37,403 nt of DNA from Egibacteraceae bacterium (GTDB lineage Bacteria > Actinomycetota > Nitriliruptoria > Euzebyales > Egibacteraceae). This document shows, one piece after another, positions 11,951 through 13,460 of the stretch. The stretch covers positions 1-37,403 of the forward strand of contig DATLGH010000088.1 in NCBI GenBank assembly GCA_035540635.1. Reading direction: 5' to 3'. Each line of letters begins with the position of its first letter. Position 1 is the first letter of the stretch. A program made the translations under genes and the position numbers. The notes under the pieces are model-generated. The model was given only the letters and a program-made list of their open reading frames with translations. It did not search any database and was not told the origin of the DNA.

Positions 11951-12706
11951 ATGGTGCACGTCATGCCGGGCTGCGAAGCCTGGTCCGCGGAGGGCGGCGA
12001 CGTCGGCGTGCTCGTCGTGCACGGCTTCACCGGTAACCCGTCGAGCATGCGCCCGCTCGCCGAGGCGCTTGCCGCGCAGGGGTACGCCGTCGAGCTGCCC
12101 CGCCTGCCGGGTCACGGCACCCGCTGGCAGTGCCTGCAGAAGACGACATGGCACGACTGGACCCGCGAGGTGGTCGCCGCGTTCGAGACCCTGCGGGCGC
12201 GAACGCGGGCACGCGTGGCCGTGGGACTGTCGGGCGGCGGAGCGCTCGGTCTGTACCTCGCGGAGACGCGGGGAGAGCACCTGTCCGGACTCGCGCTCGT
12301 GAACCCGTGGCTCTACCACACGGACCCGTTCCGGGTCTTGCTCCCCGTGGCGAAGTGGGTGCTGCCCGCGGTGCCCGGGGTCGGCAACGACATCGCGAAG
12401 CCGGGCGCCGACGAGAAGCCCTACCCGAAGGTGCCGCTGAAGGCGGCCGCCAGCTTCATCGCCTTTCAGCGCCGGGTGCGGGCGCGTCTGGGTGCAGTCA
12501 CCGTGCCGACGCTGCTGTTCACGACGCGCCAGGACCACGTCTTCGACCCGGAGAGGAACAGCCGGCTGCTTCTGGAGGGGATCGCCTCGGCGGACGTCGA
12601 GCAGGTGTGGTTGGAGCGCAGCTACCACGTCGCCACCCTCGACTACGACGCCGACGAGATCATCACCCGTACCGCCGCCTTCACCGCCCGCGTCACGAAG
12701 GGCTGA
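11951..12706 (+). CDS. Alpha/beta-hydrolase, Est30-like carboxylesterase/monoacylglycerol lipase
   Basis: A 251-residue alpha/beta hydrolase. HGFTGNPSSMRPLAEALA forms the oxyanion region, as in Est30-type carboxylesterases. The nucleophile elbow is GLSGGG (Ser near residue 95), the acid is Asp in TRQDHVF and the base is His in SYHVATLDYD. The cap region is short (LYHTDPFRVLLPVAKWVLPAV). AGGAGG 7 nt upstream (11939-11944) supports the ATG. Likely substrates are short- to medium-chain esters or monoacylglycerols; the specificity is inferred from the family. It lies between the DUF2087 gene (33 bp) and the channel gene (19 bp), so a three-gene transcript is likely. Confidence 0.88.
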   Translation: MVHVMPGCEAWSAEGGDVGVLVVHGFTGNPSSMRPLAEALAAQGYAVELPRLPGHGTRWQCLQKTTWHDWTREVVAAFETLRARTRARVAVGLSGGGALGLYLAETRGEHLSGLALVNPWLYHTDPFRVLLPVAKWVLPAVPGVGNDIAKPGADEKPYPKVPLKAAASFIAFQRRVRARLGAVTVPTLLFTTRQDHVFDPERNSRLLLEGIASADVEQVWLERSYHVATLDYDADEIITRTAAFTARVTKG

Positions 12707-12725: not shown

Positions 12726-13460
12726 GTGAGTGACGACACCCCGCCCACCATCGGCCCGGATCCCGACGACGAACCGAGCCGGCGCGAACGCCTGGCGGCG
12801 CTCATCGAGGAACGGCTCGACATCCCCATGGCGGTGCTGGCGGTGGCCTGGGCGGTGCTCGTCGCCTACGACCTCGTCGCACCGCCGGAGATGCGCGAGG
12901 AGCTGGCCCTGGCGGGCAACGTCATCTGGGCGGTGTTCGTCGTGGAGTTCGTGCTGAAGCTCAGCGTCTCGGGGCGTCCTGTGCGGTTCCTGCGGCGGCG
13001 CTGGCCGAGCGTGCTCTTCCTGCTGCTGCCGGCGCTGCGGATGTTCCGGGTCCTGCGGGCGGTGCGGGCGCTGCGTGCGCTGCCGGCCGCCCGGGTCATA
13101 GGTTCGTCCTACCGCGCCGTCGGCACGGCCCGCAACCTGCTCCAGGGGCGACTCACGTTCCTGATGACCGCCACCGGCATCGCGGTCTTCTCGAGCGCCC
13201 AGATGCTCTACCTGCTCGAGCGCGGGAGGGACGGCGGTGTCCGCGGCCTGGGCGACGCCCTCTGGTGGTCGGCGAACCTCGCCGTCACCGGCAACCTCGT
13301 CTTCGACCCGGTCACCCTGCTCGGCAGGGTCCTCGCCATCCTGCTGTCGGCGTACTCCGTGGTCGTCTTCGCGTCGGTCGCCGCAGCGCTCGGCGCGTTC
13401 TTCATCGAGGCCCGTGCGGAGCGCGCAGCGGTCGAGGAGGAAGCCGGCGGCGACGCCTAG
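12726..13460 (+). CDS. Voltage-sensor-type ion channel homologue with non-canonical selectivity filter
   Basis: A 244-residue six-helix channel of the ion_trans superfamily. S4 is clear: Arg at 105, 108, 111, 114 and 117 in LRMFRVLRAVRALRALPAAR. S5 is about 140-163, the pore helix DALWWSANLAVT about 177-188 and S6 about 198-227, with a short acidic tail. The usual K+ filter TVGYGD is absent: the same place reads VTGNLVFDPVT. Start GTG at 12726 without strong Shine-Dalgarno, 19 bp after the esterase stop. Its TAG stop shares CTAG with the convergent 59-aa gene. A gated cation pore of unknown selectivity is likely. I recall actinobacterial relatives with similarly altered filters, so this may be a subfamily trait. 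Confidence 0.8.
   Translation: MSDDTPPTIGPDPDDEPSRRERLAALIEERLDIPMAVLAVAWAVLVAYDLVAPPEMREELALAGNVIWAVFVVEFVLKLSVSGRPVRFLRRRWPSVLFLLLPALRMFRVLRAVRALRALPAARVIGSSYRAVGTARNLLQGRLTFLMTATGIAVFSSAQMLYLLERGRDGGVRGLGDALWWSANLAVTGNLVFDPVTLLGRVLAILLSAYSVVVFASVAAALGAFFIEARAERAAVEEEAGGDA

Follow-up and report, generated by a model that had tools for sequence, protein, structure and literature searches.

Does a predicted six-transmembrane (6-TM) channel that carries VTGNLVFDPVT where a K+ channel would carry TVGYGD represent a genuine protein family, and which ions, if any, might it conduct? The question is raised by a gene in a 37,403-nucleotide stretch of DNA from an Egibacteraceae bacterium (contig DATLGH010000088.1 of assembly GCA_035540635.1), which we refer to as the window. 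A preliminary description of the locus had placed the replaced filter at residues 187–197, and both its letters and its numbering turned out to be exact (Table 1). The open reading frame starts with GTG, comprises 244 codons with no internal stop, and lies 19 nucleotides behind an upstream frame (11951–12706) that reads as esterase-like. Its GC contents at the three codon positions (0.747/0.486/0.931) resemble those of a neighbouring ORF (0.71/0.504/0.925), which is what a genuine gene would show, and GYG is absent from both other forward frames across the filter.

Table 1. Features of the channel gene in the window.
Feature	Position	Strand	Evidence
Entire gene; clade-A Ion_trans protein of 244 aa, 6-TM, filter not of K+ type	12726..13460	+	Pfam, alignment and AlphaFold model
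S1, aa 34-51	12825..12878	+	alignment and model
S2, aa 54-82, with F71, E74 and K78	12885..12971	+	alignment and model
S3, about aa 93-103	13002..13034	+	alignment
S4, about aa 104-123, R105/108/111/114/117/123	13035..13094	+	alignment and model (low confidence)
S5, aa 142-165	13149..13220	+	model
Pore helix, aa 175-188, including W180-W181 and N184	13248..13289	+	alignment and model
Replaced selectivity filter VTGNLVFDPVT, aa 187-197	13284..13316	+	alignment
S6, aa 198-226 (modelled helix continues to 241)	13317..13403	+	alignment and model

The protein passed the cut-off of PF00520 (Ion_trans; 30.5 bits, cut-off 25) and stayed below that of PF07885 (Ion_trans_2, the K+ pore family; 12.6 bits, cut-off 22.5), and NCBIfam had no curated family name for it. 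The same genome contains three further PF07885 channels with the filters TTTGYGD, VLGYGD and VLGYGD. Because all three fall below the PF00520 cut-off, this 96.5%-complete assembly yielded no Ion_trans channel other than the window gene. These three scored weaker than E 1e-3 against the clade-A profile described below and are in neither of our trees. Two of them, L082 and L083 (C45 and C3), are short channels with the VLGYGD filter and C-terminal regions of about 200 residues that look alike by eye. When eight neighbouring ORFs of the window were searched by tblastn (E 1e-6) against 41 other loci (L002–L019 and L031–L053, some repeating the same contigs, with flanks of up to 1.5 or 4 kb), they recurred only at L002, from the same genus.

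The loss of the K+ signature is common to a family that we call clade A, which consists of 31 distinct sequences, namely the window protein and 30 orthologues at 57–81% identity, all without GYG and without TVGYGD. A search of 61 genomes, comprising its own and those of relatives, gave matches in 39, of which 19, including the window, belong to one family at 61–81% identity; the 18 orthologues aligned with the window protein all lack TVGYGD. Fifteen weaker matches, 25–32% identical, have TVGYGD or TVGFGD, and the procedure therefore does detect normal filters. A scan of GTDB contigs provided 23 named loci: 12 from Nitriliruptoraceae, five of Acidimicrobiia type (two of them Ilumatobacter or Ilumatobacteraceae), four labelled "Actinomycetota bacterium", one Egibacter, and one filed as Proteobacteria. 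The last (L052, JAHWKC010000187.1) is a clade-A gene on a low-coverage contig of a proteobacterial MAG and possibly a binning error. No clade-A copy was found on plasmids at E 1e-5. Two irregular copies were also seen. L102 (G018:C88:4600-6000) is a single open frame in which the beginning of S2 is fused to the final part of S5 and most of S2–S5 is lost, with the pore helix, S6 and a filter GLAGTTVEEP kept, through either decay or misassembly. At G052:C349:8521-8637, a 39-residue S4-S5-like stretch with 64% identity lies about 5 kb from that genome's full clade-A gene and is perhaps a gene fragment.

The filter of clade A is shortened as well as rewritten. Counted from W181, the pore-helix aromatic, to P195, the proline at the end of the filter, the distance is 14 in all 31 clade-A rows and 15 in all 38 GYG/GFG relatives (35 GYG, 3 GFG). 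Our by-eye alignment of the pore sets LWWSANLAVT-GNLVFDPVTLLGR of the window protein against LWWSVETATTVGYGDLYPVTLWGR of KcsA. Within the filter, position 189 is Gly in only 12 of 31 rows; position 190 is N in 19, T in nine and S in three, and never acidic; most rows carry a hydrophobic residue at 191, and 30 have V or I at 192. Position 194 is E or D in 28 rows, and P195 is found in every row, as is N184 in the pore helix. No TLESW-like or TLxSWxxG motif was seen in the window protein. Filter labels throughout were assigned by pattern, with eight then corrected by eye.

In the voltage sensor, five arginines at every third residue of S4 had been described, and this count is precise (R105, R108, R111, R114 and R117), with R123 in addition. 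Across clade A, R105, R108, R114, R117 and R123 are present in 31 of 31 rows and R111 in 29. F71 and E74, the F-x-x-E of the charge-transfer site in S2, are likewise kept in all 31, and the acid near the outer end of S1 (residue 49) is D in the window protein and, across the clade, E in 29 rows and D in two. The usual Asp of S3 is replaced by Ser95; the position is S in 30 of 31 clade-A rows and A in one, Q or E in clade B, D in 15 of 18 C-type rows, and D in 29 and E in seven of 38 GYG/GFG rows, an assignment that depends on the alignment of the short S3.

AlphaFold2 with 81 aligned sequences predicted a 6-TM model with a mean pLDDT of 84.9 and a pTM of 0.68; an earlier model from 29 rows was poor (74.9 and 0.40). 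In the 81-row model, block pLDDT values reach 91–95 for the pore helix (175–188), the loop 189–197 and S6, and range from 62 to 75, in blocks of ten, for S4 and its neighbours. The model agrees with the earlier reading of an intact S5-pore-S6 in that all three parts are present: a single pore helix is followed by the loop and then by S6, and a second pore helix is not predicted. Foldseek and VIA-align matched the model to Kv, KCNQ, Slo, SthK, HCN, CNG, TRPV and eukaryotic Nav chains, all from tetrameric or pseudo-tetrameric channels, with moderate scores and mostly large r.m.s.d. Such deviations over the whole model indicate the general channel fold only, and since the matches span K+, Na+, TRP, HCN and CNG channels, they point to no single selectivity.

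Clade A belongs to a larger group without GYG. Using a profile of clade A and its 35–42%-identical relatives, we searched the phylum at E <= 1e-12 and obtained 86 matches in 78 of 396 genomes, 75 of which were examined, the other 11 all having E-values of 2.9e-15 or weaker. Among the 52 loci that were new in this search (L126–L177), GYG is absent from each of the 29 best-scoring (L126–L154) and present in 22 of the 23 with weaker scores (L155–L177). A nearer relative with TVGYGD was not found among the 75 matches examined; the nearest GYG/GFG relatives that we examined, in the same or related genomes, are those with 25–32% identity, so that the close canonical homologue that could have overturned the original reading did not appear. 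Clade B has filters of the form [IV][TSAVG]G[EQR]P (for example TITG[EQ]P), has lost the pore-helix WW and is without both anchors used to measure the loop. C-type filters read TV[GSA]S[EDG] or TxGS[DE] (TVGSE-like) and have a W-to-P distance of 14 in 18 of 18 rows; they are thus also one residue shorter than GYG/GFG.

Seven of 15 matching plasmid records were examined; six have TxGS[DE]- or SLGPE-type filters, and one, from Vibrio, has TVGYGD. The C-type plasmid carriers include Sinorhizobium, Deinococcus and cyanobacteria, and the type is therefore not confined to Actinomycetota. The earlier suggestion of a distinct subfamily with a changed filter is supported, and the larger group reaches beyond that phylum. 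The plasmid loci L178–L183 (Sinorhizobium, Deinococcus, Gloeothece, Kovacikia) read TIGSDFWP, TSLGSEYWP, TMGSDYFP and SLGPEHWP; in the four annotated records the proteins are named "ion transporter" or "potassium channel family protein", and L179 adjoins a K+ efflux gene and L178 lies near an MgtC/SapB gene. One isolated row, L135 (G410:C1:101379-102050), has a clade-A-like S4-S5 linker (LPAARVVSTSYRA) and a filter, VVAMQGDPVPE, unlike those of A, B or C. Two C-type rows, L143 and L146 (G293:C49 and G105:C19), have a longer S4 with extra arginines (RVFRVFYFVRLLRLARIGRGLRLLR), and an insertion at this site is also seen in the plasmid rows from Deinococcus and cyanobacteria.

Trees were built without the filter columns from sets of 109 and 98 rows. 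Partial, broken, repeated or weak sequences (L030, L052, L084, L098, L102–L105 and duplicate loci) were left out of both; the 98-row set also omits L091, L096, L097, L099, L173 and L177, which have long branches or belong to the outgroup, as well as 12 of the 31 clade-A rows. With 109 rows, a single branch separates GYG/GFG from non-GYG rows (98/93, in 96% of bootstrap trees), and with 98 rows the same branch has 100/99 and appears in 100% of 200 bootstrap trees. The 109-row tree recovers clade A (100/96) and clade B (100/99), and the monophyly of clade A bears out the proposal of a distinct subfamily. Clade A appears to group with clade B and the C-type rows, in an order that the trees do not fix. 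In AU tests with 109 rows, grouping 15 C-type rows with eight GYG rows was not rejected (p 0.14), and placing A+B+X with those eight rows was borderline (p 0.05); with 98 rows, the test did not reject a tree uniting the 24 C-type and plasmid rows (p 0.459). Because the AU tests allow other arrangements, a single origin of the filter loss is favoured by the GYG/non-GYG branch but not proven.

How strongly is the new filter itself maintained? When seven-column windows were ranked by conservation, counted from the most conserved, the filter stood 4th among 171 in GYG/GFG rows, 47th among 191 in C-type rows, 141st among 180 in clade B and 173rd among 187 in clade A. Its entropy is 1.44 bits in clade A, 0.66–0.78 in C-type rows and 0.53–0.82 in GYG/GFG rows, depending on the columns taken. 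C-type rows thus preserve a rather constant filter, a point in favour of the cation channel proposed below. In a descriptive comparison of 15 pairs chosen by hand from the tree, each row being used once and some pairs not being strict sisters, the clade-A filter had a dN/dS of 0.37, nearly twice the 0.20 of the other membrane segments pooled; values similar to that of the filter were found in S2 (0.42) and the S5-pore loop (0.34), and the pore helix had 0.17. In S6, V214-F215-A216 does not vary across A2, the 29-row alignment of clades A and B, although L137, a B row examined later, departs from it. The low value in the pore helix, together with this invariant triplet, indicates that the pore domain is still selected for. 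Within the core, the clade-A filter is thus one of the more weakly conserved segments, although the residues at its positions are restricted and not random.

What might such a protein do? Because the whole bacterial group shares the filter loss, its members probably pass other ions or none. We lean, with roughly even confidence, to a homotetrameric voltage-gated cation channel that derives from K+ channels, is not K+-selective, and has a rewritten filter that is one residue shorter. On depolarisation, the arginine-rich S4 would shift and, through its pull on the S4-S5 linker, open the S6 gate; Na+ and K+, perhaps also Ca2+, might then pass a wider filter lined by the small polar side chains of T/S/A188, G/S/A189 and N/T/S190, with an outer acidic ring of E/D194 above this lining. 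Such a non-selective channel is the best-supported reading because the sensor charges and the pore helix are constrained and because rewritten filters form non-selective pores in NirBac and NaKTs, discussed below. The loose filter of clade A, the missing S3 Asp, the hydrophobic residue at 191 and V or I at 192 argue against it. The poor conservation of the filter and the S3 without its Asp make a voltage sensor that does not conduct a serious rival, in our judgement unlikely: the pore domain would have been kept for assembly or signalling, and the clade-A filter would have drifted. An entropy of 1.44 bits, the rank of 173 of 187, the filter dN/dS of 0.37 against 0.20, Gly189 retained in only 12 of 31 rows and the absence of the pore-helix WW from clade B as well are consistent with such drift. 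The drift is bounded, however, since position 190 is always N, T or S, N184 and P195 occur in all 31 rows and dN/dS stays well below 1; the pore helix remains conserved, and no conserved partner gene accompanies the channel in the 41 loci searched.

A Na+- or Ca2+-selective voltage-gated channel, with a role in keeping sodium or pH balanced in saline, alkaline surroundings, appears quite improbable to us. The labels CSSed, CS-Sed or T1Sed mark the source isolates of 15 of the 23 named relatives; PMC6146748 describes CSSed10, CSSed11 and T1Sed as soda-lake sediment datasets, and the CSSed16 labels among the relatives are not among these names. The soda-lake origin of many relatives would fit such a role, and alkaliphiles are described as admitting Na+ through voltage-gated channels (PMC4225499), but this origin is weak evidence because it may only mirror which genomes were sequenced. 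The acid at 194 in 28 of 31 rows would suit a cation filter of this kind, whereas position 190 is never acidic in clade A, and neither a second pore helix nor a TLESW-like motif is present in prediction or sequence. Retained K+ selectivity through a non-canonical filter is less probable again. TbIRK, with GGYVG, is reported to prefer K+ over Na+ by a factor of >7 (PMC5429665), so a missing signature alone does not exclude K+ selectivity; against this, clade A has Gly189 in only 12 of 31 rows and GYG in none, and its loop is one residue short in all 31. A sequencing or frame artefact, or a gene in decay, is hardly credible. The shortened copy L102 does show that decay or misassembly occurs in the clade, but the frame is open with neighbour-like codon-position GC, 30 distinct orthologues share the trait, and dN/dS over the other membrane segments is 0.20. 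With no GYG in the other frames besides, we rejected a frame error as the cause of the changed filter for the family, and the error that the preliminary description had named as a possible refutation left no sign.

Among known systems, the non-selective channel that we favour resembles Kv/KCNQ-type K+ channels in its 6-TM plan, S4 arginines, S2 F-x-x-E and single pore helix, and differs from them in the absence of TVGYGD, a loop one residue shorter and Ser in place of the S3 Asp. In the PDB, the sequence closest to its pore is KcsA (phmmer), and the closest to its S4–S6 is KCNQ (profile search). Deleting filter residues is said to have made Shaker non-selective in the work of Heginbotham in 1992. 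The window protein would most likely be a 6-TM counterpart of two bacterial channels, NirBac of Anaeromyxobacter and NaKTs of Tsukamurella paurometabola, an actinomycete. NirBac channels are reported as relatives of K+ channels that keep the architecture and have the P-loop replaced by unrelated sequences, differing even between close relatives, and they were measured as non-selective (PMC4607889). They are of Kir type without a voltage sensor, whereas the window protein, known here from its sequence, is 6-TM with S1–S4 and had no Pfam match to a Kir cytoplasmic domain. NaKTs is described as a tetrameric, Ca2+-activated, non-selective 2-TM channel with the filter LPMGNGPLSP, and its authors' own database search returned no other channel of similar sequence (PMC5052707). 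Its filter is non-canonical like that of the window protein, which is 6-TM and has a different one.

Metazoan CNG channels, with the filter TIGE, are a whole clade with a shortened non-GYG filter, as is the group described here (PMC7576140). The TITGEP of clade B resembles TIGE, and the TVGSE of clade C does so less. Unlike CNG channels, the window protein has no cyclic-nucleotide-binding domain and ends 18 residues after position 226. NsvBa and NaChBac are bacterial 6-TM voltage-gated non-K+ channels, as proposed for the window protein, and NsvBa is a non-selective channel of an alkaliphile within the Nav family (PMC4225499); in these, a TLxSWxxG filter, absent here, lies between two pore helices. 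Hv1 and VSP consist of the voltage sensor only, whereas S5, the pore helix and S6 are present in our model.

Changed filters on the frame of a K+ channel are thus already known singly. A survey of eukaryotic Kv-like and CNBD channels reported that strong deviations from TVGY/FG mark individual channels and not clades; within its sample metazoan CNG alone departed from this rule, and plant CNGC, which is non-canonical too, fell outside that survey (PMC7576140). In open-licence papers on channels of Actinobacteria, Nitriliruptor or Rubrobacter with non-canonical or TVGSE-type filters, we found no description of the present group. The bacterial group described here, in which a single conserved 6-TM frame carries several filter types, would be a further case at the level of a clade. 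We tentatively suggest, with somewhat less than even confidence, that a large bacterial voltage-gated lineage lost K+ selectivity once, through a one-residue contraction of TVGYGD to a TVGSE-like filter, and then diversified its filters into TITG[EQ]P, [ST]GNxVFEP and small-polar forms in soda-lake species, which would make it a non-K+ lineage derived from K+ channels, apart from the Nav/Cav line. The group would also form a natural series in which to follow the loss of selectivity and its replacement, and the GYG relatives in related genomes would serve as controls.
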